Below, piece after piece: positions 3-24,408 of a stretch of 64,000 nucleotides of DNA. Source of the DNA: Bacteroidota bacterium (lineage in GTDB: Bacteria; Bacteroidota; Bacteroidia; AKYH767-A; 2013-40CM-41-45); contig QQVM01000020.1 in NCBI GenBank assembly GCA_003389385.1, positions 124,001 to 188,000 on the forward strand, written 5' to 3'. The notes under the pieces were generated by a model, which searched no databases, had not been told where the DNA came from, and saw only the letters and a list, made by a program, of their open reading frames with translations. Within the stretch, counting starts at the first letter, position 1. Each line of letters opens with the position of its first letter. The translations under genes and the position numbers were made by a program.

Positions 3-617
3 CCTTCATTGTTTGCAGGATTAAATCCCGGTATGCACCAACTTTGCTATCGTTCAAGGGATGCTAATGGTAACTGGGGACTAACGAATTTTCGGCTGGT
101 CTATGTGGAAGACAGTTCAACCACACCGAAGTTGATTGAAAATATGGAGTACTTCTGGGATGTGGACAGCGGGTTTGGAAGCAACGGCGCTTTCATTCCC
201 GCAACGGCTTTCAGCGATTCTGCGAATTTTCAATTCGAGGCTTATGTACCGGTTCATCTTCTTGTCGGAAATCATACGCTCTTTCTGCGATGTCAGGATA
301 CAGAAGATAACTGGAGTCTGACGAACAGAATTGAGAATATTTTTGTCGATACCATTACTCATGTTGGATTACAACAAATCGGTGAGCATGATGTTTCAGT
401 CTTTCCTAACCCATTTCAAGATCAGTTCACGATCAAGTGTCATGATGAAAGGACGATGCGACTGACCCTCTATGATCAATCAGGAAGATTGGTTCTGGAC
501 AAAAACGTACTACCGAACCTTCCTATTGATACCGGTAAACTTGCCTCCGGCAACTACACTGCATTCCTATGGATTGAACGGAATGTTATTCTGAAAGCTG
601 CACTGATTAAAAACTGA
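3..617 (+). CDS. T9SS-sorted secreted protein, 3' end only
   Basis: The reading frame is open at the left edge of the window, so this is the C-terminal ~204 residues of a larger exported protein. Two similar segments are visible, each with a Y-F-W/DPG-like strand pattern and an ending of the type 'G-x-H-x-L-x-x-R-x-x-D-x-x-x-x-W', about 115 residues apart; this repeat is common in surface proteins of Bacteroidota. The last ~75 residues form a T9SS type A sorting domain: FPNPF motif, a central 'LYDQSGRLV' strand and a final LASGNY/LIKN strand. It is therefore expected to be exported and anchored at or released from the cell surface. The substrate or role is not visible. A strong hairpin terminator follows directly. 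Confidence 0.85.
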   Translation, partial: PSLFAGLNPGMHQLCYRSRDANGNWGLTNFRLVYVEDSSTTPKLIENMEYFWDVDSGFGSNGAFIPATAFSDSANFQFEAYVPVHLLVGNHTLFLRCQDTEDNWSLTNRIENIFVDTITHVGLQQIGEHDVSVFPNPFQDQFTIKCHDERTMRLTLYDQSGRLVLDKNVLPNLPIDTGKLASGNYTAFLWIERNVILKAALIKN

Positions 618-7741: not shown

Positions 7742-8146
7742 TTAATTTGTTTTAGAGGTTATTAATATTTCAACTACAGCACTTATATTTATATTATTGT
7801 CGTTTAGATATCTTTTATCCACCACTCTGATTATTTTGGTTAAATTGTTCATCAATTCTTGAAATAAATTCTCCAAAAAAATTCCCTTTAATTCTACGAT
7901 ATGAGAGGTAAACATGAGAATGATTCTATTGTCATCTGGTATATATTCTCCTGAAATCAAATATGCATAGTTCAAAAAAAACCACTTTCCATCCGCAAGA
8001 ATAAAACAGATGTTACGCGCATTGCCAGGCTCCCCATGAATTCCAATTAAATTTGAATTTGGGTCTACGCTTTCAATCTTCTCCTCTCTGGTTTGGATTC
8101 CTTTATGCGATCCATTATATTTTAATTTAAGTTCGGTCATAATCAT
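7742..8146 (-). CDS. Uncharacterised 134-residue protein overlapping the relaxase end
   Basis: A soluble protein with a beta-rich first half ('NLIGIHGEPGNARNICFILADGKWFFLNYAYLIS') and a helical second half. No family is recognised. It begins inside the relaxase gene: the ATG at 8146 overlaps the relaxase stop region by 20 bp, so it is probably translated by coupling at the end of the mobilisation operon. A GTG at 8158 is a possible earlier start. It is far richer in A+T than most of the relaxase gene and converges with the membrane protein gene, with 3 bp between them. Confidence 0.55.
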   Translation of the reverse strand: MIMTELKLKYNGSHKGIQTREEKIESVDPNSNLIGIHGEPGNARNICFILADGKWFFLNYAYLISGEYIPDDNRIILMFTSHIVELKGIFLENLFQELMNNLTKIIRVVDKRYLNDNNINISAVVEILITSKTN

Positions 8147-10850
8147 TTTCTTTTGCACTCTTAACTTTGAATCCTGATTTTTCTTTTATGAGCTTGACAG
8201 TTTTCTCTTCTTGTTGGAGTTTTCGAGCAATATTAATATGTGACTTGTCATTAATTAGTTCTAGTGCAGATTGTCTCTCAGCCACTTCGGCTGCATGATG
8301 AAGCAATGCTTCCTTGTCATCTGTATAAATCATTGCCTTGTCCCTCCCCCGCGACACAGAAACATAAAACTGCTTCGCATCAGTCGCTGTAAACGTCTCC
8401 GCAGGTTGTGAGATGAACACTTCATCAACGGTTTTTCCCTGTGACGCATGGGAGGTTATGCAGTGCGCATGATTGATATGTCCGAAAGTCGCTGACACTT
8501 TATAAGTTGAATGGCTTTGCTCATTTCGCAAAGTAATAACGCCTTTCTTAGTGACGGAAATAACTTCCAATTTCTGGCCGTTGTTCAGTCGCTTTCCGGT
8601 GTCATCAAATCCGTTGCGTGTGATTCTGATCCTGTCGCCTTTGGAAAGCTTTAACTCCGATTTTTTATAGACATCAAAGGTGCTGCATTTATCGATGTGT
8701 AGAAATTGCTTTTCATCTTTAGCATTTGTTATCTGAATTTTATCGTCCTTAATGGATGCTATATTCCAGATGCTGCCGCGTTTTATTCGCTGAACATTTT
8801 GATTGAACTGAATGACCTGCCCAGCTTTGAAATTCCGAACATCGGATTTTTCTGCTTCTGTCAGATTCAGATTTGAATATCGGATCGCAGAAATTTCTTT
8901 CTTGCCAATCAAGTTATTTTCGCGAAGTTTCTTTCTTATTTCTTTGGTGACTTCTTCACCTTGGGCGTGTGTCGGGGAAATGATCAGTGCAGTCTTTCCT
9001 GTCTTCAAAGTTTGCACATAGTCATCGACAAGCTGTGCATTGGGCTTCATCGGATCAATAGATTTAATGAATCCGATCCTGTCCAGCTTTTCAAAGGCAG
9101 ATTTCACATCTGCCTTTGAAAGGTCTTCGACTGCTGATTTGTATTCGACGGTTCTTTGCCGGTAGATTTTGCTGACCTCTGCCGTTTTGATTCCGGCGAC
9201 TGTATTGAGGATGCGCAAGGCATCCCCGCGAACGACGCTGGCATGTTGCTTTGTATCTCCGCCGAGGATGAGCCGGGCGTTTTGTTTTGTCGTCAGTTGC
9301 AGCAAGGCTTTCATGTCCTTTGTTCCAAGTAAACCAGCCTCGTCAACCCAAAGAACCTGGCCTTTGATTTTCTCCTGCATCTTCTGGTCTTTCAAAAGCA
9401 GGGCAACGGTATCCGCCTTGCCGTATCCTTCCTGCCTTAAGACTCCGCGTGAGGCTTCCGCCGTAGGTGCGACCACAGTGACCTCCTTACCGGCCTTTTC
9501 CATCCAGGAAATAGCCTCCTTCATAAGGGTCGTTTTACCGGTTCCTGCGGCCCCACGGATGATAGAAACCCTGTGGCCTGTGGTGAGCACATGCCTGACT
9601 GCCGAGGCCTGCTGGCCCTTTAAATTGACTTCTGGCGCGTTTTCATAAAGGGGCAGGACTTTGCCCTGTCCGTTCTTGGCCAGTTCGACCATGTCCCGCT
9701 CCTCAGAAAGGACTTCTTTCGTCGTGCACATCGTCCGGGTTCTTTCCCGGACTTTAATGATCCGTGTATCATTCCTGAACTCTTCAGCGATTGTTTTGGC
9801 GTTAACGGACTTATCCCCGAGGCTGAACCGGTAGGCAGACTCCAGCAGCCTCCGTTCAGCCATGACGGAAGCCCGCTCAAAGGAATGCAGGATGGCATGA
9901 TTGACGCATCCCCTGGCATCGAGGCTGGATTTTGTCTTCTGCGGATCGAAGCGGACGAAGTTGGATTCCTGGCTTGGGATTTCAGCATCCTGCACTTGCC
10001 TTTTCCATTCCGCTTTCAGTTCAGGCATTGTCAGTCCCTTCTGCTTCTTGGAGCGTGTGCGGGCGCCGAGTTCGCTCAGTTCCTTTGCATCTGTAATGCC
10101 CTTTTCTTTGGCTACGCGTCCGATCTCATCGGTGCGTTTGGAGAAAAGGTCTATGGCCTGTTGCGGTACGCCGACAACCTCAAAGGACTTTTCAGTGGGG
10201 CGTATCTGGTATCCAAGGTTTATGAGCCGGTCGGAAAACTCCTTATGGAAGAGAGCCTGATAGTAAGGCATGTCTCGTTTAATGTCGCGGAACTGGCCTG
10301 CCTTTAACCGATCCTCTGTCTTGTCCCAGGTAACATTGAACACGAAGCAGTGGCAATGGAGATGCGGATCAGGTGCATGACCTTCTACCGGCCTTGCGGT
10401 CTGGTGGATGAAGTCCGCCCAGACAAGTTCGCCTGAATCCCGTTCCTCGTATTTGCCTCCCTTGCGGACGCGGGTTTTGCTGTCCGCTTCGATGTGCTGC
10501 ATGGTTTCCTGAACGCTCGCATGAAAGGCATCGAGAATATGGCTGTCATTGCCGAGAGCATGGAGAATTGAAACGGACTTTGGACAATGGAAGTTAATGT
10601 CATATCCCGTTGTCCTTTCTTCCTTCGTGCGTGGCGTGAGCTTATTGCCCGTTGCCGGGTCTTTGTTTTCGCAGAGCGCATAGAAGTTCTCCTTTGTTGC
10701 CATGCCTGAAATGCCGAGACGATCCGCAATCTTGCCCTGAATGTTTCCGTTCAGTTCCTGCCCGTCGATGTAATAATCCGACCGGGCAAGGGCTTCCGAG
10801 AAATACGCTTTCGCGTGCCCGGCTGAACGGCTTTGAATCATGCGGATCAT
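8127..10850 (-). CDS. MobF-family relaxase/helicase (TrwC/TraA-like)
   Basis: A 907-residue two-part enzyme. The N-terminal relaxase domain (residues ~1-290) has the catalytic tyrosines at Y26-Y27, the acidic 'GYDINFHCPKSVS' segment and the metal-binding three-histidine motif H163-L-H165-C-H167. The C-terminal ATPase is a RecD/UvrD-like 5'-3' helicase with Walker A 'GAAGTGKT' at 433-440, Walker B 'VDEAG' at ~502 and a late 'HCITSHASQGKTVDEVFI' motif. It nicks one strand at the origin of transfer, stays bound to its 5' end and unwinds the strand for transfer. An internal ATG nine bases downstream (10841) is an equally good start. The last ~60 codons are markedly A+T rich. Confidence 0.93.
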   Translation of the reverse strand: MIRMIQSRSAGHAKAYFSEALARSDYYIDGQELNGNIQGKIADRLGISGMATKENFYALCENKDPATGNKLTPRTKEERTTGYDINFHCPKSVSILHALGNDSHILDAFHASVQETMQHIEADSKTRVRKGGKYEERDSGELVWADFIHQTARPVEGHAPDPHLHCHCFVFNVTWDKTEDRLKAGQFRDIKRDMPYYQALFHKEFSDRLINLGYQIRPTEKSFEVVGVPQQAIDLFSKRTDEIGRVAKEKGITDAKELSELGARTRSKKQKGLTMPELKAEWKRQVQDAEIPSQESNFVRFDPQKTKSSLDARGCVNHAILHSFERASVMAERRLLESAYRFSLGDKSVNAKTIAEEFRNDTRIIKVRERTRTMCTTKEVLSEERDMVELAKNGQGKVLPLYENAPEVNLKGQQASAVRHVLTTGHRVSIIRGAAGTGKTTLMKEAISWMEKAGKEVTVVAPTAEASRGVLRQEGYGKADTVALLLKDQKMQEKIKGQVLWVDEAGLLGTKDMKALLQLTTKQNARLILGGDTKQHASVVRGDALRILNTVAGIKTAEVSKIYRQRTVEYKSAVEDLSKADVKSAFEKLDRIGFIKSIDPMKPNAQLVDDYVQTLKTGKTALIISPTHAQGEEVTKEIRKKLRENNLIGKKEISAIRYSNLNLTEAEKSDVRNFKAGQVIQFNQNVQRIKRGSIWNIASIKDDKIQITNAKDEKQFLHIDKCSTFDVYKKSELKLSKGDRIRITRNGFDDTGKRLNNGQKLEVISVTKKGVITLRNEQSHSTYKVSATFGHINHAHCITSHASQGKTVDEVFISQPAETFTATDAKQFYVSVSRGRDKAMIYTDDKEALLHHAAEVAERQSALELINDKSHINIARKLQQEEKTVKLIKEKSGFKVKSAKENDYDRT

Positions 10851-11592: not shown

Positions 11593-12357
11593 TTAACGGG
11601 CCTCGTAGATTTCTTCATCCACTGTCATGAGGGATGCTACTTTTCTTCGCATCTCCTGGTCGTTTGGCTTCTTGCCGTAGAACCTGAATCCGCGGGTTTC
11701 GCTTGGATCTTTGTCGTTTACGAATGAATCTTCCAGTTCCTCATTGCAGATCATTTCATCGATTTTATCCATCACGAAGTTGTCTCCGATATGATAAGCA
11801 CCGGCATACCCAAGGCTATAAAATAAGCTGCAAACGATGAGCAGCATGCCAAGGGGTTGCGCCAGAAGATAGAGGCCGATGCCTCCCAGAAAGAAGATTA
11901 ACGGCTCAGAGAAGATTTCGACGGTGCGGGGATTTGACTTCCGGAATGGAATTTTAAGCCGGTAGAATCTCGGGTCTATTTCTCCGGCATAGAGGCTGAA
12001 TTTGGCAAAGTCGAAGACGGAGGGATTGCGCTTTTTATCCCTGTTATGTTTGAGGCTCACGCGAAGGAAGAGGAACAGGAAGACATACCAGCTCGCATAC
12101 TTGGCCATGAACTTTCCAAAGTGAAACTCCTGAAACATGACGTTTGAGATTTGCAGGAATCCGGGTAGCAGAAATAAAATGCTGAATACTGTGACAGCGG
12201 AACTGAGAGTAAAATACCTCTCACCGAAATTCTTCCTGATAAAGACTTCAAGGAGAAGGCGCGGCCAGGATGAGAAGGTAAAAAAGTAACTTAGGATGAG
12301 GCTCTTTAACATGTTTTGCCGCCCGATGTTTTGACGGTAATAGAGATTTTTTTTCAT
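11593..12357 (-). CDS. Mobilisation-associated membrane protein, partner of the VirD4-like ATPase
   Basis: A 254-residue protein with four predicted membrane helices at about residues 48-70, 84-101, 150-168 and 170-188, and a ~65-residue acidic cytosolic tail. Its ATG overlaps the stop of the upstream ATPase gene by 4 bp (12354-12357), so the two are made together. The ATPase lacks its own membrane anchor, so this protein probably supplies the membrane part of a split coupling protein. This is inferred from layout; I do not recognise the family by sequence. Confidence 0.75.
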   Translation of the reverse strand: MKKNLYYRQNIGRQNMLKSLILSYFFTFSSWPRLLLEVFIRKNFGERYFTLSSAVTVFSILFLLPGFLQISNVMFQEFHFGKFMAKYASWYVFLFLFLRVSLKHNRDKKRNPSVFDFAKFSLYAGEIDPRFYRLKIPFRKSNPRTVEIFSEPLIFFLGGIGLYLLAQPLGMLLIVCSLFYSLGYAGAYHIGDNFVMDKIDEMICNEELEDSFVNDKDPSETRGFRFYGKKPNDQEMRRKVASLMTVDEEIYEAR

Positions 12358-13871
12358 GCTTCTATGAGTTTGGAAATGGGTTTGTAATTCTGGTTAAAGG
12401 CCATTTTGATATGGTTTCTCGACAGGGAATTTCCCTGGCAATGCAGATAGCCTTCGACCCGGAAATCATTGGCCGGTCCTCCGGTTTTAAGGCTCATGAA
12501 CTCCTCCGGTCTCACCAGGCGATCCAATTTCAGTGACTTCGTTCTGGAGGCTGAAAATTGTCCTGCGGCAGTGGACGTTTTGGACATTTCCTCATAAAAA
12601 TCGTCGCCGATCAGATCTGAGGCATACCTGTTTGTCTCTATGTCTGCATTGGCGTGGAATATTTTTGTGGCCAGTGTTCCCAGAAAGCTTTTCACACGGT
12701 ACTCGGCTTTCGCACCACCCATGTTTGCGTAGTAGTTCGGAAGGTTTTGAGAAATATAAACCGTCGCAATCCGGCTGCTTCGTGCCGTGGCCTGATATTC
12801 GGCATCGTGTTCATGGAGGAAGTTCTGAGCCTCGTCAGCCCACAGGAAAACCGGACGTGCATCTTCCCTGATGCTTCTCTTTTCCATTGCCCGCTGCCAG
12901 ATGTACTTGAACATCACCTGGCAGTCGCGGCCAATCTTATCGTAAACCTTAACGGGCAGGTTAATGAGTATGATCTTTCCCTTGATGCTGTCTTCGGGAG
13001 TAAAGGTTGAAACGTTCTGACAGAAGAGATCATTGACCGGGTCACGCAATAGCCGGAACAGAAAGCCGGTAAAGGAAAAATCTATGATGGATCGTGTCTT
13101 CTCTGAGAGGTTATAATAGGTCTCCATGAAGAACTGATCGAGGAACTTTAACAGCCGGGCTTCGGGAATTTCTCTTGTGATGATTTCATTGAAGCTGTTT
13201 TCATCTTCAATGTCTGTTAAGGTTTCCACTGTCTGTTTGCCTTTCCATGCTTCAATCCTGTTAACGACATTTTCCCGTGCATTATCGAAGGCATCCCGGA
13301 ATGCATTCACTGAGGTTGATTGTTCTTCATTGGACTCCGGCTTTGGAATGCTTTGAACGATCTCAAACATTCTCTTCACTGAAAGGCTTCCATAGGCCAG
13401 CTTGCAAAGATCAATGACATTAAAGATGAGCATATCCAAAGCTGTTTCCCAAAAAGGGTCATCGCTCTTACCGTTTGACTTTTCTTCCGATGCACGAATG
13501 ACTGTTTTCAGGACGCTGACGATGTTCTCCGTGATGGCATTCGATGAACCGGCACGGGAGGATTCATATTCGAGGAAATTAAAAAAGTGACCGCTACCCG
13601 GTTCAACCACCAGAAGGTCATTTTCCCGGCCAGTAATCTTACAGTACTCTGCCCACATTTCTTTTTCATCGGGCTTTGTGGAAAGCACAAGACCACCGAA
13701 TCCCGCCGACAAATATTTTAATGCGAGTAAACGTCCGGAGCCGGAGGTTTTGCCTGAACCGATCCCGCCAAAAATCTGCACGCCTTCGACGGCTTGCCGG
13801 ATCGTCCAGGATTTTTTATCCGAAACTCCGGTAAGCTCGATTAATGCATTATCAAGATCGTAGCTGTTCAT
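12354..13871 (-). CDS. VirD4/TraD-like conjugative coupling ATPase without N-terminal membrane anchor
   Basis: A 505-residue P-loop ATPase with Walker A 'GGIGSGKT' at residues 35-42, Walker B 'FLWADEAQNF' at ~342-351, and the following 'SRIATVYISQNLPNYYANMG' segment typical of TraM-recognition/TraD C-terminal ATPases. Such coupling proteins link the relaxosome to a type IV secretion channel and pump DNA. Unlike VirD4 it starts almost at the P-loop and has no transmembrane helices. The membrane protein encoded next, overlapping by 4 bp, likely replaces them. No channel genes occur in the window. Confidence 0.92.
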   Translation of the reverse strand: MNSYDLDNALIELTGVSDKKSWTIRQAVEGVQIFGGIGSGKTSGSGRLLALKYLSAGFGGLVLSTKPDEKEMWAEYCKITGRENDLLVVEPGSGHFFNFLEYESSRAGSSNAITENIVSVLKTVIRASEEKSNGKSDDPFWETALDMLIFNVIDLCKLAYGSLSVKRMFEIVQSIPKPESNEEQSTSVNAFRDAFDNARENVVNRIEAWKGKQTVETLTDIEDENSFNEIITREIPEARLLKFLDQFFMETYYNLSEKTRSIIDFSFTGFLFRLLRDPVNDLFCQNVSTFTPEDSIKGKIILINLPVKVYDKIGRDCQVMFKYIWQRAMEKRSIREDARPVFLWADEAQNFLHEHDAEYQATARSSRIATVYISQNLPNYYANMGGAKAEYRVKSFLGTLATKIFHANADIETNRYASDLIGDDFYEEMSKTSTAAGQFSASRTKSLKLDRLVRPEEFMSLKTGGPANDFRVEGYLHCQGNSLSRNHIKMAFNQNYKPISKLIEA

Positions 13872-14609: not shown

Positions 14610-14639
14610 ACAAATTCGGTCAATTCAGCAGGTGTCAAA
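14606..14639. promoter_or_regulatory. Putative operator of the XRE regulator
   Basis: An inverted repeat TTGAC-N7-GTCAA (14607-14623) overlaps the -7 box and the predicted RNA start. A second inverted partner TGTCAAA (14633-14639) matches TTTGACA (14606-14612). Symmetric sites in this place fit repression of the gene by its own dimeric XRE product. Confidence 0.45.
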
Positions 14640-14943
14640 TCAAACATTAGGTCAGAAGCTGCGCAGGCTACGCGAAGATCAAGGATTATTACTTCGTAAG
14701 GTTGCGGCAATTCTAGATATTGATGTTGCTGTTCTCAGCAAGATGGAGCGTGGCGAAAGAAGGTTGTCAAAGGATGCAGTCTTAAAGTTGTCTAAGCTCT
14801 ATAAAGCCGATGCCGATGAGTTGTTAACTCTATATCTAACTGAAAAAATTCTTGGCGAGATCGAAAATGAAGAACTGGCAATCAAAGCTCTTCACCTAGC
14901 AGAAAAGCAAATTAAGTATCAAAAATTAAATCTGAAAACATAG
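14632..14943 (+). CDS. XRE-family regulator upstream of the type III restriction system
   Basis: A 103-residue protein with a complete XRE/Cro helix-turn-helix at residues ~7-62 ('LRRLREDQGLLLRKVAAIL', then 'VAVLSKMERGERRLSKDAVLKLSKLYKAD') and a short helical tail ('EDEELAIKAL'-like) that may mediate dimerisation. It starts with GTG, supported by a promoter at 14580-14609. It lies 145 bp before the mod gene, the place where controller proteins of restriction systems sit. It could time restriction after entry into a new host, or regulate both divergent operons. The link to the restriction genes is inferred from position. Confidence 0.85.
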   Translation: MSNQTLGQKLRRLREDQGLLLRKVAAILDIDVAVLSKMERGERRLSKDAVLKLSKLYKADADELLTLYLTEKILGEIENEELAIKALHLAEKQIKYQKLNLKT

Positions 14944-15088: not shown

Positions 15089-16810
15089 ATGCCAACACTC
15101 CAATTCAAAGGAAAGACCTTCGTTCAAAACCATCACCTGGCGGTGAAGTATCACCAATTGGTTCCGAATAAAAAGTTAAGTCTGACGGATAAGGTTTCAC
15201 TGCATGATAATTTAATCATTCACGGTGATAATCTTAAGGCATTGAAAGCTTTGTTACCTACATATGCTGGTAAAATTAAATGCATTTACATTGACCCACC
15301 CTATAACACAGGCCAAGACAATGAAAAGTGGATATACAATGATAATGTAAACAGTCCAATGATCAAGGAGTGGCTGGGAAAGGTTGTAGATAAAGAAGAT
15401 CTTACAAGACATGATAAATGGCTTTGTATGATGATGCCTCGTCTAAAATTATTGAAAGAATTGCTAGCAAATGAAGGTGTTATATTTATCAGCATAGATG
15501 AAAACGAAGAGCATCATTTAAGGAACTTGTGTGATGAAATCTTTGGTCAAGATAATTTTATTGAGAAAGTAGTTTGGAATAAACGCATTCCAAAAAATGA
15601 TAAAGGAATAGGAAATATACATGAGTATATTTTGATATATGTTAAGGATTCCAAACTTAGACATGAATTTCATATGCCCAAAGACGGTATCGATGATGTG
15701 TATGATTTCGTTGCAAAGCTGAAGAAGAAAAAAGTCCCTATTGAGGAAGCTGAAAAATTACTTAAGCAGTTTTATTCAAAAAAGGGTTATGACCGAGGGA
15801 TTACTCTTTACTGCAATCTTGATGATCAATACAGGATTTGGGGGAAAATAAATGTAAGTTGGCCAAATGGCAAGGATGGGCCACGCTATAATGTAAAACA
15901 TCCAATAACAAAAAAACCTACGAGGGTTCCTGATAACGGTTGGAGATACATTGAAGATACAATGAACAGTTATCTCGATTATAAAAATGTATTCGAGCGA
16001 TATGATGGAACATATGTATGCGGAAGAATGTGGTTTGCGGAGGATGAAAAAACTCAGCCAAGTTTCATTCAATATCTCGATAACGTAAAAGACTTTCTAT
16101 TTAGATCAGTTATATCATTAAAAAGTTCTGGCGGTTCTGAATTGGACGAGTTATTACCCAATCATGGCTTCCCACACCCCAAAACTTATAAGCTTATACG
16201 TAAGCTAATTCAAACTATTGAAGGCGATGACTTTATTGTTTTAGATTCTTTTGCTGGATCAGGAACAACAGCTCATGCTGTGTTAGACTTGAATTTTGAA
16301 CACAACTCAAAATTAAAATTCATTTTAGTTGAAACAGAAGATTATGCTGATAAAACAACAGCAGAAAGAGTCAGAAGAGTAATTAAAGGCGCTCCAAAAT
16401 CTTCAAACTTTAAAGAAGGTTTAGGTGGAACCTTCAGCTATTTTGAATTAGGCAAAGAAATCGAAATGGAAAGTATTTTACGAGGCAAGAGTTTGCCTTC
16501 TTATGCAGAGTTTGCCCGTTACCTTTTCTATACAGCCACTGGCGAAGAGTTTAATGAAAAGGCAATCAATGAAAAGACAGGTTTTATTGGCGAAAGCAAG
16601 AACTATGAAGTCTATCTTCAATATAAACCAGACATTGAATGGCTGAAGAAAAATGCCTTGACGCTGGATGGGGTAAAGGCTTTCCCGAAGTTCAAGAAGA
16701 AGCAGCGTTTGGTTTTTGCTCCGGCAAAATATGTTGATGACTATACCTTGCTCGAAAACAGAATTGACTTCTGCCAGTTGCCCTATGAAATTTATCGCAT
16801 TCAGAAATGA
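15089..16810 (+). CDS. mod: Type III restriction-modification methyltransferase (Mod)
   Basis: A 573-residue DNA adenine N6-methyltransferase of the beta class: the catalytic 'DPPYNTG' (motif IV) at residues 69-75 comes before the AdoMet-binding 'DSFAGSGTT' (motif I) at 386-394. The stretch between them (~160-340) is the target-recognition region and is the most A+T-rich part. Mod binds an asymmetric site, methylates one strand and is also needed for cleavage with Res. The gene overlaps res by 4 bp (ATGA), as is usual for coupled subunits. The length fits the family. Confidence 0.93.
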   Translation: MPTLQFKGKTFVQNHHLAVKYHQLVPNKKLSLTDKVSLHDNLIIHGDNLKALKALLPTYAGKIKCIYIDPPYNTGQDNEKWIYNDNVNSPMIKEWLGKVVDKEDLTRHDKWLCMMMPRLKLLKELLANEGVIFISIDENEEHHLRNLCDEIFGQDNFIEKVVWNKRIPKNDKGIGNIHEYILIYVKDSKLRHEFHMPKDGIDDVYDFVAKLKKKKVPIEEAEKLLKQFYSKKGYDRGITLYCNLDDQYRIWGKINVSWPNGKDGPRYNVKHPITKKPTRVPDNGWRYIEDTMNSYLDYKNVFERYDGTYVCGRMWFAEDEKTQPSFIQYLDNVKDFLFRSVISLKSSGGSELDELLPNHGFPHPKTYKLIRKLIQTIEGDDFIVLDSFAGSGTTAHAVLDLNFEHNSKLKFILVETEDYADKTTAERVRRVIKGAPKSSNFKEGLGGTFSYFELGKEIEMESILRGKSLPSYAEFARYLFYTATGEEFNEKAINEKTGFIGESKNYEVYLQYKPDIEWLKKNALTLDGVKAFPKFKKKQRLVFAPAKYVDDYTLLENRIDFCQLPYEIYRIQK

Positions 16811-19326
16811 AACTGAAACACTATCAGGAAAAGGTTTTAACGACGCTCAAGGATTATTTGAGCGCACTGAGTGACTTTCGGGGTAAGTACGAAAAGGCTA
16901 TTGAATTCGATCCTGAAATGGCTCAGGAATATAACTTCCCAAAGCGTGCGTTTTCACAGGCTACAGGTAAAAGTATTTATCATGATAAGACCAATGGCCT
17001 GAGTGAGCCATTGCCGGATATTTACCTGAAAGTGCCAACTGGTGGCGGCAAAACCTTGCTGGCCTGTCACAGCATTGACTTGATTCAGAAGCTATATCTC
17101 AAGAAGCAGACAGGGCTTGTTCTCTGGATAGTACCTTCTACGCAGATTTACAGACAGACGATATTATCTCTAAAGAATAGGGAACATCCTTACAGGCAAA
17201 TGCTGGATATATCCAGCGGTGGCAGAACGCTAATAAAAGAAAAGACCGATCTGTTTAACTGGCTGGACATTGAAGAAAATCTGGTCGTTATGTTGCTGAT
17301 GTTGCCTTCGGCAAATCGGCAAAATAAAGAAACCCTGAAGGTGTTTCAGGATGCTGGCGGGTTTACCGACTACTTTCCTTCCGAGGACAACTATCCGGCG
17401 CAAATTGAATTGCTGAAGAAAATTCCTAACCTCGATTATTTCGGGCAGGACGGAGAGATCATCCAAAAGCAGATCAAGACTTCCCTGGGAAATACCCTGA
17501 AGCTCCTTAAACCGATAATCGTCATTGATGAAGGACATCGTGCCTATGGCGAGTTAGCCCGGAACACGATCAGAAACTTTAATCCAAGTTTTATCCTCGA
17601 ACTATCGGCAACCCCGCCGCCAAACAGTAATGAACTGGTAAAAATCACGGGTCGGGAATTGCACGAGGAGGAAATGATCAAGCTGGACATTCACCTGACA
17701 AACAAAGCCAGCCTTTCGTGGAAAAACACCTTACTGGCAAGCTATGAAAAAAGAAATGACCTTGAAAGCAAGGCCAGGGAGTATCAGGAAAACACCGGCG
17801 AGTATATCCGACCGATCTGCCTGATACAGGTAGAGCGAACCGGAAAGGATCAGCGGGATAAAGATTACATCCATGCGGAAGATGCAAAGGAATACCTGAT
17901 CAAGAAATGCAATGTTCCGGAGAGCCATATCGCTATCAAGAGCAGCGAGAAGGACGATATTGAAGGCATCAATCTGTTTGCTCCGGATTGTGATATTCGG
18001 TATATCATCACGAAACAGGCTTTGCAGGAGGGCTGGGATTGTTCCTTCGCCTATATCCTTGCCATCCTGACGAACCCTCAGTCATCAACAGGAATTACTC
18101 AGCTTGTCGGTCGAATTTTACGTCAACCCTCAGCTAAGAAAACCAAGATCAAAGACCTGGATGAATGTTACATCTTCACCTACAAACCGAACGCCACAAC
18201 CCTTGTCCGTGAAATCAAGAACGGGCTGGAAGGTGAAGGGCTTGGCGATATTGCAGGACGCTTGGTAACTGACGGTGCTTCGGGAGAGGCTGAAACAGCC
18301 AGGGATCGGGATGTTAAATACCGTTCCAAATTCAAGAAGTACGAAGGAAAGATTTATCTGCCAAAATTTGTCATTCAGGAAAAAGATAGTTGGCGCGACA
18401 TCATCTTTGAAGCGGACATCCTGGAAGGCATTGATTGGAGTAAGGCCGACATCAGTGAAATCGGTGAAAAGACACTGAGCGATCGGCAGACCAAGGAACA
18501 GGAATTAACCCTTGGCCTGAGCGAAGTGGAATCGCAACTGCTAAGAGAAACCGGAAGGTATGAGACTAAAGGTACGCTTGAAATTGACGAAGCTTTTTTA
18601 GCACGGCAGATCAGTGATGTAGTCCCGAATCCATGGATTGCCTTTGAGTTGGGGCACAAGGCACTGGAACTTCTTTCCAAGAAATATGAGAAGGAAATCA
18701 TTTCAGCAAATTTTGTTTTCATCATCGAGGAACTGAAAAAGATTTTGGAGAGGGAAAAGAATCGCCTTGCGGAAAATGTCTTTCGCAATCTTCTCGATAC
18801 AAAAAAACTGTGTTTCTTTTTGATAAAGGAGAAAGGACATCACATTCTGCCATCTCATATCAAAGTGAAAGGCAACAAGCAGTTAGTCCGCAACGACAAT
18901 TCACCCATTCAAGCATCTCTCTTTGACTATGTGCCCGATGAGGATTTGAATGATACTGAAAGAGCAGTAGCTATCTATCTCGACGAGCAGGAACAACTTC
19001 TCTGGTGGTATCGTAATCGGGTGAGAAAGGACTTTCACATCCAGGCTTGGCAACGAAACAAAATCTATCCCGACTTCATTGCTACTCGAAAATCCGAAAA
19101 GCAGAAGGATGAATACGACAAGGTATTTGTCCTTGAAACGAAGGGTGTACATCTCAAAGAGAATGACGATACCCGCTACAAGAAAAATGTTTTCGCTCTG
19201 TGTAATGAATTAGGCGCAAAGAAGGCTTGGAAAGAACTTTTCGATGAATTCCCTGATCATGAATTTGAATTTCAGGTGGTATATGAGGATGAGTGGCAGG
19301 CGACCATCAATAGATTGGTACAATAA
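16807..19326 (+). CDS. res: Type III restriction endonuclease subunit (Res)
   Basis: An 839-residue superfamily 2 helicase-nuclease. Walker A 'VPTGGGKT' is at residues 76-83, the DExH box 'VIDEGH' at 239-244, 'LSATPP' shortly after, and the second RecA domain holds 'QALQEGWDC' and 'TQLVGRILRQP' motifs. The C-terminal nuclease domain has a PD-(D/E)xK site: P755-D756 followed by 'LETKG' (E777, K779). With Mod it moves along DNA and cuts when two unmodified sites are met in opposed orientation. It ends 27 bp from the end of the convergent Argonaute gene. Both subunits appear intact. Confidence 0.94.
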   Translation: MKLKHYQEKVLTTLKDYLSALSDFRGKYEKAIEFDPEMAQEYNFPKRAFSQATGKSIYHDKTNGLSEPLPDIYLKVPTGGGKTLLACHSIDLIQKLYLKKQTGLVLWIVPSTQIYRQTILSLKNREHPYRQMLDISSGGRTLIKEKTDLFNWLDIEENLVVMLLMLPSANRQNKETLKVFQDAGGFTDYFPSEDNYPAQIELLKKIPNLDYFGQDGEIIQKQIKTSLGNTLKLLKPIIVIDEGHRAYGELARNTIRNFNPSFILELSATPPPNSNELVKITGRELHEEEMIKLDIHLTNKASLSWKNTLLASYEKRNDLESKAREYQENTGEYIRPICLIQVERTGKDQRDKDYIHAEDAKEYLIKKCNVPESHIAIKSSEKDDIEGINLFAPDCDIRYIITKQALQEGWDCSFAYILAILTNPQSSTGITQLVGRILRQPSAKKTKIKDLDECYIFTYKPNATTLVREIKNGLEGEGLGDIAGRLVTDGASGEAETARDRDVKYRSKFKKYEGKIYLPKFVIQEKDSWRDIIFEADILEGIDWSKADISEIGEKTLSDRQTKEQELTLGLSEVESQLLRETGRYETKGTLEIDEAFLARQISDVVPNPWIAFELGHKALELLSKKYEKEIISANFVFIIEELKKILEREKNRLAENVFRNLLDTKKLCFFLIKEKGHHILPSHIKVKGNKQLVRNDNSPIQASLFDYVPDEDLNDTERAVAIYLDEQEQLLWWYRNRVRKDFHIQAWQRNKIYPDFIATRKSEKQKDEYDKVFVLETKGVHLKENDDTRYKKNVFALCNELGAKKAWKELFDEFPDHEFEFQVVYEDEWQATINRLVQ

Positions 19327-19353: not shown

Positions 19354-22300
19354 TTACATTAGATTTCGATAATCGTATGTTTTACCTGCAAATCTATTGA
19401 GTAACCAACCAATACGGGCTATTTCATTTGAGGATTCCAGCGTGGCAGGTAACTTTCCATACAAATCAAAATTATTCCAGTTCATTTTTGTTAAACCTAG
19501 AATCTCAGTTGCAAGAATACTGATATTGCTTGAGCCGTAGTGTTTTTTAACCTTTATTGGTACAGGAATATTCTTACCTCCCAAGTAATAGTTTCTATTT
19601 TGTCCTTTAACTGAAGGCACAATACCATGCGTCCACATTAATGCAGTAAATCGATCAAGTAGAAAACAATTTCCACGTGAGAGAGGATACCAGTGCGGCG
19701 ACAATGTATTGTCTTTTGAAATCAGTGAAATAAATCTTGCATCCGGTTCAAAATTTATTTCTACAAGATCAATTTGATGAATACCTGTTTTTTTCAGACT
19801 ATCAATAATTCCTTGAGATTCATCTGTCTTAAAAGGCGTTCTTTTGTGCAATACAACACGCTTTGGTAAATAGCCCATTGCATTGAAAAATAATTCACGA
19901 ATAGACGTACCAAGTTTATAGGCTTCTGTATATGAAAGAAATGGGTTTCTTCTGCTGTTGTCGAGGAAAAAATCTTCGATACGAGAAAGCTTATATTTTA
20001 ATCCTTGACCATAGGCATTATAAATATGACTGCATCCTAATATAATTTTATTGTTTTCGTTGCGGTGCCGAACGCTGTATCCTAATCCTACAAATGCGGT
20101 TTCAGATTGAAGGTTATTAAGTATCCATGGAGTTCTCTGCGCTTTCACATAGAAAGAAAGGGAAAGCCACCAGTTGACCTGACACTCTAAATTATCGGTT
20201 AGCGTATCTTCTCTAATGAATTGCGTTGATATTTGCTTTTGGGCTGCATAAGCCTTGATATAATCATGTAGATCAAATTCTTCGCCTTCATCATCCACTG
20301 TTGTAATATTGTTCCAAGCTGTTGGAACAAATATCACCATGACAAGCTTCTTGTTTGTCGCCTCTAAAAGATCGATGCTACGCTTTATATTATTCGCAAG
20401 GCTTGTTGCAGTCGCAATTAAGGTTTCCTTTGGTTCGAATGAACTATTTGTCCAAAGCTCACTCTGTGGATCAGGTACATTTAAAGGAATGCCGTAGATG
20501 GATATGAAATTAGGGTAATCTAAAAGGTATTCCTGTTTAAAAGTGCCAGTTGGCTTTATAGCATTGAGGCGTTGCAGAAATTGATATAAGGCGTCTTTGT
20601 GAGAAGGAGGACAAATTACACCCAGGTTTATCTCAGGTTCGAAAACATTGTTGTTCATTGAGAAATCATACGGCCGGTTCTGAATTAAACCGCGCATAGG
20701 ATGAATGTCCTGAATCATTCCTATTCCTGATCGAGATGAAAATTCAAGAGTAGGCTCGGCATATTGAATGCCTCTATGCAAAATCAATTTTTGATCAAAT
20801 GTGGTTGGAAATTGAAATGAGTAATTATTTGTACCGATTCGTTTGATCGCCACATGCATCGTGTTAGAGCTTAAAGAAAAATTGAATGCCGTTCCTGAAT
20901 CAAAAGGAAATTCAAACTTTAACGGAGCACGCTCTGGAAATAATATTCCGCGCCAATAATCCAATAGCTCATTGTATTTGACATTGGGTCTCTGAACAAG
21001 GGTATCTTCGTGATATTTTTTACCGATATCGAATTTTGCGCGCTTTGGAACTGGCTTCTCATCTGTGCTTTGAAGATAAAAAGTGGGTTTAAAACTTACG
21101 TAAGCGAAAGGTGGTGTGCGATAAATGTTATTGTCAAAAGAGAGTGTCATTTCCACAGCATCAAACAATTCATAGGCGATATTTTCATGTGTCACTGTCC
21201 TCCTCGAATTGGGTAACCACAGTAATTTCTTAAAATCACTTCCCAAATTTAATTTCAGCGACAATGCTTTGATCACAGTTCTGATATAAAGATGATGCAA
21301 TGCGGTGCTATTTTTTATTTCTTCATAAGTAATTGGAGTTCTCTTAATCGCATCCTTTATTCTGCTGCCAAATGCTTCACGAATAGCTCCTTGAGTTCCA
21401 AAAGCAAAAACCATCTTTTTAATTGGCGCTGCGACTACTGCTTTATCTTTGGTCAATTCTCTTAAAGTCGCCCAAGCTTTTTCCTCAGGCTCGAAAGAAA
21501 ATTCCATCTGGTAAACTTCAGATGGAAGGCTAATAGGGACTAAATTGCTACGAAGTAGGGCATGAGTTGTCGAAGAATCAATGGTGAAAGGTGTCTTTAT
21601 CCATTCATCAGTCGTATTTCCTTTAAGCAATTTTTCAACAGCAGATGAAAACTCTTCATGGTCTGTGAAGCACGTTTTCCATGTATCTGTCATTAATTGA
21701 TCAAATCCATCCGTGCCAATGTAGTATCCATGCCTGCCGCTTTGAGAAAGAGAATTTAAAAGTTCTTGTACTTGTGGTGATGGATCATCTCCATAGCCAC
21801 ACCAAAATAACATCCCACCGCCGGGTTTAGCATAAGCCTTCTTCAGGGCCTTCATGAGAGAAATGTCTCTTCCGCTATACCCACAGACAATTAAATGCTT
21901 GTCGTATAGGTGTCGTTCGATTGCTTCAACAAAAGTTTCGTGTTGGGTATCAAGTTCAGTTGAAGTATTTTTTAGCGGCCCATATTTAAAATCTCCATGC
22001 AGGGCAACAGACATTAACTCCTGGTTGTTAACAGGCCTATGTATTCGTTCTGCTGTGTCCAGTGAAATAGCAATGGGAGTTAATCCCATTTGATGAGCGG
22101 ACTTCTCAACCAGTCCATCGAAATTTGTGGAGAAAACTGACCTGACCATTCCGTATTTTGCGAGTAAAGCCAATATTTTATATCCAATAAATGGCTCTTT
22201 CCCTTTGCAGATATTTTCAAAATATTTCCTGCGCGTATCATCAATCGGAAAAGTTTTTAATGCATAATAGCTATATTCCTCTGTAGAATTTTCGAGGGGG

Positions 22301-22605
22301 TAACACCCTTCCGCATCCAGCCACTTCTGAATGCTACGCCGAACGGAATCCGATTTATATTCAGAATATTCTTTTGAAAGGTTTGGATTTTGAGTTATAA
22401 AAATATTTCGTTTCCACTCCCATATGCAATCGGCAGCTGATTGAATTCCAGAGCTGATAGAAGCACCTGCTCCAAGAAGAAATACATGTCCTGTATCTGT
22501 ATTTTCCCTTAAAACTCTTAAAAAGGCATCGTAAGGAAGTAGGGCTTTAGAAATATCAAATTCCTGTAGAATATCAGTAATTACAGGGGATTTGGGGCTA
22601 TTCAT
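19354..22605 (-). CDS. Fused SIR2-APAZ-short Argonaute (single-chain SPARSA-type defence protein)
   Basis: A 1083-residue protein. Residues ~40-310 form a SIR2-type NADase domain: 'LLGAGAS' (43-49), 'STNFDG' (159-164) and the catalytic histidine in 'LHGDF' (H203). Residues ~340-610 fit an APAZ-like region. Residues ~610-825 are MID-like, and ~830-1083 PIWI-like ('FVGLGYSV', 'LPKRVVLHKR', 'KHYG', 'LTKMNWNN', ending in 'RNLM'). The first catalytic aspartate position of PIWI reads Gly/Tyr, so slicing is not expected. Known SPARSA systems use a guide to sense invader DNA and then destroy NAD+ to kill the cell; two-gene and fused forms both occur. The ATG at 22605 is preferred to a TTG at 22629. 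Domain borders are estimated by eye. Confidence 0.88.
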   Translation of the reverse strand: MNSPKSPVITDILQEFDISKALLPYDAFLRVLRENTDTGHVFLLGAGASISSGIQSAADCIWEWKRNIFITQNPNLSKEYSEYKSDSVRRSIQKWLDAEGCYPLENSTEEYSYYALKTFPIDDTRRKYFENICKGKEPFIGYKILALLAKYGMVRSVFSTNFDGLVEKSAHQMGLTPIAISLDTAERIHRPVNNQELMSVALHGDFKYGPLKNTSTELDTQHETFVEAIERHLYDKHLIVCGYSGRDISLMKALKKAYAKPGGGMLFWCGYGDDPSPQVQELLNSLSQSGRHGYYIGTDGFDQLMTDTWKTCFTDHEEFSSAVEKLLKGNTTDEWIKTPFTIDSSTTHALLRSNLVPISLPSEVYQMEFSFEPEEKAWATLRELTKDKAVVAAPIKKMVFAFGTQGAIREAFGSRIKDAIKRTPITYEEIKNSTALHHLYIRTVIKALSLKLNLGSDFKKLLWLPNSRRTVTHENIAYELFDAVEMTLSFDNNIYRTPPFAYVSFKPTFYLQSTDEKPVPKRAKFDIGKKYHEDTLVQRPNVKYNELLDYWRGILFPERAPLKFEFPFDSGTAFNFSLSSNTMHVAIKRIGTNNYSFQFPTTFDQKLILHRGIQYAEPTLEFSSRSGIGMIQDIHPMRGLIQNRPYDFSMNNNVFEPEINLGVICPPSHKDALYQFLQRLNAIKPTGTFKQEYLLDYPNFISIYGIPLNVPDPQSELWTNSSFEPKETLIATATSLANNIKRSIDLLEATNKKLVMVIFVPTAWNNITTVDDEGEEFDLHDYIKAYAAQKQISTQFIREDTLTDNLECQVNWWLSLSFYVKAQRTPWILNNLQSETAFVGLGYSVRHRNENNKIILGCSHIYNAYGQGLKYKLSRIEDFFLDNSRRNPFLSYTEAYKLGTSIRELFFNAMGYLPKRVVLHKRTPFKTDESQGIIDSLKKTGIHQIDLVEINFEPDARFISLISKDNTLSPHWYPLSRGNCFLLDRFTALMWTHGIVPSVKGQNRNYYLGGKNIPVPIKVKKHYGSSNISILATEILGLTKMNWNNFDLYGKLPATLESSNEIARIGWLLNRFAGKTYDYRNLM

Positions 22606-22626
22606 TTTGTTAGGAAATTGGGGTAA

Positions 22627-22656
22627 CAAAGATTGAATATGGCAGCAAATTCACAA
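22627..22656 (-). promoter_or_regulatory. Probable promoter of the SIR2-Argonaute gene
   Basis: On the minus strand, TTG (22654-22656) and AATCTTTG (22627-22634) are 19 bp apart, one mismatch from the consensus -7 box. It lies 22 bp before the ATG at 22605, which agrees with that start over the upstream TTG, which would fall in the -7 box. Confidence 0.45.
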
Positions 22657-22766: not shown

Positions 22767-23981
22767 TTAAAAATCTATCACAGAATCTAATGCTTCATCG
22801 GCGTTCTTATGAATGAAGTTCGCCTGATATCCAATCGTCGTTGTAATTGAAGAGTGACGATATAACTTTTGCAACATCTGAATTGGGATTTTGTCGCCTG
22901 AAATGTTTCCAAAGGTGTGACGAGCAATGTGCATTGTTAAGGATTTTTCGATTTTTGCCTCTTCTCTCAATCTCTCTAAAAACTTGTTAATTGTCTTCAC
23001 GGCATAGGAAATCTTACGCTGCACATCAAAAGAGTTATCAAAGGACTTCACATGCTTAAGTTCTGGAAAAATTAAATCGGTTTTGGATTTTTTATCCCGC
23101 TGATAGAAATTGAGAATCTTAATTACCTTCTCAGGAAGTTTTAGAGAACCGGCTTTAGCATTTTTACCCATCGTGTAATAGAGCCGGTCGTTCTGAATAT
23201 CAGACCATCGTAGCCGCAGTACATCGGAAACCCGCATTCCTGCAAAGTAGAAGGAAAATAAAAAGAGATTGCGGACATGGTGTAGACGCGGTTCATCAGA
23301 AAGGTCAAGCTCTTCCAAAATCTTAATCTCTTTTTCGCTCAGGCCAATCTTGGCCGACTCAGGAAATTTGATCTTAACTTTCCCCTGACCGAACGGATAG
23401 AATTTGGGATCAACCAATCCTGCTTTGATAGCCCGGCTGAAAATGGTTCTCAGCACAATTAAATGATTCACTACCGTCCTGTCTGTTATGGTTCGTGTGC
23501 TTTTTAAATGCACCTTGAATTGCTCAATGAGTGGAACGGTAATCTCATTAAAGGTAATGTCCTTTTCCTTTACAAACTCTTTGAACCTTTTGATGCGTGG
23601 TTCATCTGCTGATCTTCGATTGAACTTTCCTGCAGCTTTTAGATTCGCAAGATATTCCTTTGCCTGATCAAAGAATGAAATTCCGTTTTTAGATTCGAGA
23701 TTTTGCCGGATAGCTTTGACCGTATGAGGATTTACGTCAGTTTCTATCTGGAGAATGGAGTCATTGTATTCCGATAACTTTTGAAGGAGAAAATTATTCA
23801 GCCGTACAGAATTGGGATGAGACTTTCTTACCCTCTGAGCTTTCTGATCCCAGAATTTTTCTTCCAGGCTTTTACCGAGATAGATATAGCTGGATCTTCG
23901 GTTCTTGGTTATTCTCAGAGCTAATGGATAAGTTCCGTCATTATTTTGTTTCTTGCGGAGTTCAAATTTAACTGTGGCCAT
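22767..23981 (-). CDS. int: Tyrosine recombinase/integrase of the element
   Basis: A 404-residue protein in the typical Bacteroidota layout: an N-terminal arm-binding domain ('ATVKFELRKKQNNDGTYPLA'), a SAM-like core-binding domain (~100-195), and a catalytic domain with R250 ('GMRVSD'), H351-x-x-R354 ('HIARH'), H376 ('LYRHSS') and the nucleophile Y385 ('IGYQ'). All catalytic residues are present. The ATG at 23981 starts the conserved N-terminus; a TTG at 24008 is unlikely. It lies ~130 bp from the tRNA-Leu fragment that marks the right junction. A -7-like box (24039-24046, minus strand) matches the promoter consensus but has no clear -33 partner. Confidence 0.95.
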   Translation of the reverse strand: MATVKFELRKKQNNDGTYPLALRITKNRRSSYIYLGKSLEEKFWDQKAQRVRKSHPNSVRLNNFLLQKLSEYNDSILQIETDVNPHTVKAIRQNLESKNGISFFDQAKEYLANLKAAGKFNRRSADEPRIKRFKEFVKEKDITFNEITVPLIEQFKVHLKSTRTITDRTVVNHLIVLRTIFSRAIKAGLVDPKFYPFGQGKVKIKFPESAKIGLSEKEIKILEELDLSDEPRLHHVRNLFLFSFYFAGMRVSDVLRLRWSDIQNDRLYYTMGKNAKAGSLKLPEKVIKILNFYQRDKKSKTDLIFPELKHVKSFDNSFDVQRKISYAVKTINKFLERLREEAKIEKSLTMHIARHTFGNISGDKIPIQMLQKLYRHSSITTTIGYQANFIHKNADEALDSVIDF

Positions 23982-24108
23982 GGCATTGGTAGAACATGGG
24001 TAGAACAATTGCTGGTTTTACCTGGTTTGATGAAGAGTCAAATTTAGTGAAAAAACTGATATAATATTGATTGTCAGTACAAATAAGTTCAGGTGAATTC
24101 ATATCGAA

Positions 24109-24166
24109 CAGGACTTAAAATCCTGTGGTCATTGCGACCGTGCGGGTTCGATTCCCGCCCCGGGTA
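24109..24166 (+). other. tRNA-Leu(UAA) 3' fragment: right attachment site
   Basis: The sequence folds as the 3' part of a class II tRNA: anticodon stem-loop (24109-24125, anticodon TAA at 24116-24118), variable arm stem (24127-24130 with 24136-24139), T arm (24142-24158), acceptor 3' strand CCCGGGT (24159-24165) and discriminator A (24166); no CCA is encoded. Upstream there is neither the matching acceptor 5' strand nor a D arm, so this is not a working tRNA. It is the duplicated core left by integration into the 3' end of a tRNA-Leu gene, and the element lies to its left. Confidence 0.85.
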
Positions 24167-24408
24167 CGACTATCCTACCGTATTAACATCCGCTTAAATT
24201 GTTTTGCGGAGGTGTTTTTTCGTTTAGTGGCCAGTAAATTGGAAATCTTTTAAGATTTTCTTCCCTTTTGTCTGATCTTGGTTTCAAGCCCCTACCGGAA
24301 AGACACCGGAGGGTTTCCTTGCATAGTTTAAATGTGGAATTCAAAAGTCTTCGGTTCTTCAGTCGCAATTGGCTCACCTGTTTCTCTGATTGGATTCATT
24401 ATAAACCC

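Follow-up and report, generated by a model that had tools for sequence, protein, structure and literature searches.

The window—the whole 64,000-nucleotide stretch of Bacteroidota DNA analyzed here—encodes on its minus strand a single protein of 1083 residues (19354–22605), in which a SIR2 domain, an APAZ domain, and a MID-PIWI short Argonaute follow one another in one chain, as seen from the ORF, PADLOC and PDB matches, and alignment. We are highly confident that this protein is a fused SPARSA of the S1A type, in which a guide RNA and invading ssDNA would trigger NAD+ hydrolysis by SIR2 and abort the infection. PMC12205087 defines clade S1A by the fusion of SIR2-APAZ with pAgo, and the frame indeed holds both in one polypeptide. 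Both the one-chain architecture and the SPARSA identity had been proposed in the first-pass annotation, and every sequence-level feature of a SPARSA that we checked is in place.

The intact frame runs from an ATG at 22605 to 19354, stop codon included, in the ORF call on the 64-kb window. The end at 22656 given in the first-pass annotation lies about 50 bp upstream of this ATG, and an alternative TTG start at 22629 would yield 1091 aa. Given the Pfam, PADLOC, and PDB matches and nine fused relatives, the 1083-residue frame is real and no chance frame; likewise, the motifs are found where they had been placed—GAGAS at residue 45, TNFD at 160, LHGD at 202, and GLGYS of PIWI at 840. Since the frame stays intact among relatives of 46 to 62% identity, the gene is under selection.

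The SIR2 NADase domain covers residues ~23–320 (21646–22539, minus strand) and includes, besides GAGAS, the residues N161 and H203 as well as GYSGRD at 242; it is delineated by Pfam SIR2_2, the alignment with GsSir2, conserved columns, and a fold match to the SIR2 domains of SPARSA and ThsA. APAZ follows at residues ~350–588 (20842–21558, minus strand), based on the PADLOC Aga_SIR2-PNTD1-PNTD2 profiles and a fold match to 8y7z_A, and MID-PIWI at residues ~613–1083 (19357–20769, minus strand), based on the 8in8_C profile and PADLOC pAgo models. SIR2_2 exceeds the Pfam cut-off with 1.2e-8 and is the sole Pfam match, APAZ and MID-PIWI not being reported by this database. Because Pfam alone would miss these two domains, PADLOC, PDB profiles, and fold comparisons were brought in. 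The PADLOC full-length pAgo model PDLC02384 spans residues 22–1083 with 1366.9 bits, and the SIR2-PNTD1-PNTD2 profiles span residues 40–582, i.e., the front and middle of the protein. By sequence, the best PDB chain is GsAgo (8in8_C, 5.8e-51, residues 632–1082), and GsSir2 (8in8_B) is matched at 7.7e-30 over residues 40–312; a profile built from eight fused proteins sharpens these matches to 3.1e-67 and 7.2e-40, respectively. Neither Pfam nor PADLOC reports a PAZ domain.

The middle part of the protein showed no sequence alignment with GsSPARSA in the PDB sequence and profile searches, and its assignment comes from the PADLOC profiles and the fold. The predicted APAZ (residues 350–588) superposes on the SPARSA APAZ 8y7z_A with a Z-score of 19.0 and an rmsd of 3.3 Å over 216 aligned residues. 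For the model of residues 23–612—folded separately, with a pLDDT of 74 overall and mostly about 90 across APAZ—SPARSA SIR2-APAZ chains rank first in the fold comparison, and its front matches ThsA and other SIR2 NADases. The full-length AlphaFold2 model, calculated with 8 sequences, reaches a mean pLDDT of 61 and a pTM of 0.35; because of this poor quality, it was used for domain-level folds only and not for domain placement. Within this overall poor model, residues 652–1056 match the MID-PIWI chains of short pAgos with a Z-score of about 16. Hence, Pfam, PADLOC, PDB profiles, and folds together place SIR2, APAZ, and PIWI in the expected order. Residues 540–640 also gave weak profile matches to enterotoxin chains (E about 0.0016), which we judged to be chance.

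The residues that would carry the enzymatic activity are conserved. N161 of TNFD and H203 of LHGD align with N142 and H186 of GsSir2, two residues whose replacement by alanine abolishes NADase activity (PMC10781750). By this alignment, the SIR2 Asn-His NADase dyad is conserved in the 1083-residue protein. At the other end of the chain, H780, K784, Q795, and K821 are invariant in the alignment of eight fused proteins; read from the sequence columns, they form what we take to be the pattern of the guide 5′-end pocket of Argonautes. In PIWI, Gly842, followed by Tyr843—the Gly/Tyr reading of the first-pass annotation—occupies the first catalytic Asp position and Arg922, within HKRT in the sequence columns, the second. 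Both positions, 842 and 922, are assigned by motif, as known from catalytic Argonautes, and are presumably the corresponding ones. By these columns, PIWI lacks the DEDX tetrad and is predicted to be inactive. The catalytic Asp residues are also absent from all aligned relatives, fused and two-gene alike. Neither of the findings that the first-pass annotation named as refuting its reading was made: similarity to APAZ and PIWI is present, and the tetrad is not intact.

By analogy with the characterised two-gene SPARSA, a guide- and target-dependent mechanism can be proposed for the fused protein. MID-PIWI would hold the guide RNA, with the channel for nucleic acids being completed by APAZ. Once the guide pairs with the ssDNA of an invader, a sensor loop might move and, thereby, switch on the SIR2 NADase with its putative N161/H203 dyad, probably accompanied by oligomerization. 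As NAD+ falls, the infected or transformed cell would die or stop before the invader spreads. The type of guide and target, the activation, the NAD+ depletion, and the defense function itself are all carried over from the two-gene systems and are, hence, expected rather than observed for the fused form.

The closest counterparts are the S1A short pAgos, represented by PADLOC PDLC02384 and PDLC02420, JomAgo, and PgAgo. They share the full-length order of SIR2, APAZ, and MID-PIWI as well as the inactive PIWI and also occur in Bacteroidota; no architectural difference was found, and merely the host genome and the carrier element differ. Fused NADase-APAZ-pAgos are mentioned in PMC10810196, and JomAgo of the Bacteroidota member Joostella marina is one cited fused case (PMC10954474, PMC11217426). 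The fused layout is, thus, already described, and the 1083-residue protein is an ordinary, well-preserved S1A-type example and no new kind of system. The nearest solved structures are those of GsSPARSA from Geobacter sulfurreducens (PDB 8in8, 8jkz, 8y7z, and 8y80), with which the SIR2 Asn-His dyad, the APAZ fold, and MID-PIWI are shared; GsSPARSA, however, consists of two proteins of 587 and 473 aa. SPARTA (TIR-APAZ and short pAgo) and SPARDA/SPARHA (nuclease-APAZ and short pAgo) likewise have APAZ and an inactive MID-PIWI sensor, but their effector is a TIR domain or a nuclease instead of SIR2. What the window adds is a fused SPARSA, clean and intact, carried by a mobile element that targets tRNA-Leu; the view of the family stays the same. 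Because the solved SPARSA structures that we found are of the two-gene Geobacter system, the single-chain form makes a convenient one-gene target for structural and NADase work. That the single chain fixes a 1:1 ratio of sensor to effector, alters NADase switching—for example, by dispensing with the subunit rearrangement of the two-gene systems—and is favored as portable one-gene cargo is a speculation to which we give little credence.

Nine further full-length fused relatives with 29 to 62% identity were found in Bacteroidota. All named close relatives belong to this phylum, in line with the host proposed earlier, and a full-length fused match is present in 3 of the 395 genomes sampled from it, including that of the window. 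In a MID-PIWI tree—unrooted, with GsAgo and the reference proteins published for S1A and S1B outside it—the ten fused rows lie on one side of a branch with 99/95 support and the two-gene rows on the other. In the two-gene relatives, the SIR2-APAZ and pAgo genes overlap by a few bases, and fusion or split therefore needs little change; one published view is that single polypeptides split later (PMC10954474).

Some of these loci deserve a comment on their own. On an IMG/VR contig, a fused SPARSA of 1054 aa (L058:7998–11162), 48% identical to the protein of the window, stands immediately ahead of phage-like genes, one of them endolysin-like, and is possibly phage- or prophage-borne. In Empedobacter brevis, the fused gene (L002:9989–13177) lies between ParA-like and small genes and a TraG-ATPase-like gene of 834 aa; as read from the sequence, it apparently belongs to the transfer region of a conjugative element. 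A candidate defense protein of 1608 aa, similar to TmtA/MkoA, is encoded 22 bp upstream of another fused SPARSA (L003:5140–9966). At a further locus (L041:2195–3957), a class I short pAgo gene is complete, but all that precedes it is an APAZ fragment of 102 aa, and the SIR2-APAZ partner of this pAgo may be broken.

The gene is carried by what is well supported as an integrative mobilizable element, in agreement with the first-pass annotation. A tyrosine recombinase (22767–24008, minus strand; Pfam Arm-DNA-bind_5, Phage_int_SAM_5, and Phage_integrase) serves as its integrase, and a TrwC-type relaxase/helicase (8127–10850, minus strand; Pfam TrwC, 5.6e-64) and a TraG/VirD4-like coupling protein (12354–13871, minus strand; Pfam TraG-D_C and T4SS-DNA_transf) are present. 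Repeat comparison revealed an att-like direct repeat of 59 bp (24109–24167, plus strand) that matches the 3′ part of tRNA-Leu(TAA) with 93% identity. Its other copy is the end of the intact tRNA-Leu, which precedes the window by about 9.6 kb, lies ~33.8 kb from the first copy, and has tRNA-Gly and a mutS-like gene as neighbors. RadC, ArdC-like proteins, and a primase-like protein are also encoded between the repeats; the portion preceding the window adds a helicase, a methyltransferase, and another integrase. No empty integration site was found in relatives, where the same-genus contig stops just past the tRNA; in the other relatives compared, mutS and tRNA-Leu are common and the right flank differs.

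The part from the tRNA-Leu to the window (L056:6625–13319) encodes a helicase of 1426 aa whose C-terminal part is DpdJ/MkoA-like, together with a DNA methyltransferase and the second integrase, which is P4-like; it may constitute an island of its own at this tRNA. Two in-frame pieces (L056:14761–15831 and window 9–617), separated by a stop codon, resemble parts of a single T9SS-exported protein, whose gene is possibly broken. Because the second integrase and these T9SS-type pieces lie inside, the repeat-bounded interval may be composite. In a genome of the same family, other mobile-type genes—judged by eye as ArdC-like, Dam-like, and ThiF/JAB-like—follow the same tRNA-Leu (L081:660–12001), and the site therefore looks like an integration hotspot.

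This setting bears on the natural role of the enzyme. A less probable reading, albeit one of some weight, is that the same enzyme mainly excludes competing plasmids or mobile elements on behalf of its carrier rather than defending against phages. The position on an integrative mobilizable element, with type III restriction-modification and ArdC-like anti-restriction genes nearby, fits this, as do the fused relatives in L002, an element of conjugative type, and in L058, a phage-like contig. However, location on a mobile element says nothing about the target invader, since many phage-defense systems travel likewise, and the two roles share one mechanism. Much weaker is the case for the SIR2 domain being a protein deacylase or nuclease and no NADase: a 2018 survey took the SIR2 domains of SIR2-pAgos as nucleases (PMC6299218) and some of the weaker fold matches are to sirtuin deacetylases, but the nearest folds and sequences are SPARSA and ThsA NADases with the same Asn-His dyad, making this reading very improbable.

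The fused SPARSA gene is separated from the integrase gene by a gap of 161 bp, both running in the same direction. Within this AT-rich gap, three one-mismatch matches to TTG-N18-22-TANNTTTG, the Bacteroidota promoter consensus, compare with about 0.8–1 per kb across the window and are suggestive only of a possible promoter. The own promoter claimed in the first-pass annotation is, hence, not established by these one-mismatch matches, and co-transcription is a possibility because the integrase lies upstream in the same direction. That the gene is silent and a passive passenger of the element would fit a gap scan that leaves its promoter unproven, but it is hardly to be expected of an intact 1083-codon frame whose active-site columns are conserved in relatives only 46 to 62% identical.

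Further defense genes surround the fused SPARSA. A type III restriction-modification methyltransferase (15089–16810, plus strand; PADLOC MTase_III 1.6e-147, and Pfam), convergent with the SPARSA gene, is followed by the restriction enzyme res (16807–19326, plus strand; PADLOC REase_III 3.4e-183, and Pfam ResIII). An ApeA-like HEPN protein (674–2116; Pfam ApeA_NTD1 and HEPN_Apea, PADLOC PDC-S58 2.9e-107) lies within the element interval as well. Upstream of the restriction-modification genes, profile matches and neighborhood comparison identify an HTH regulator of the control-protein or CapH-like kind (14632–14943, plus strand). Apart from this regulator, none of the neighboring proteins of the window recurs beside the nine fused relatives, and we therefore claim no conserved operon with the integrase or type III genes. 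In Sediminibacterium, the gene for a homologue of the regulator with 46% identity (L005:9699–9989) has a one-base overlap with the start of the fused SPARSA gene, and a similar regulator lies directly upstream of the fused gene in Empedobacter (L002), which suggests that control proteins of defense genes are interchangeable.
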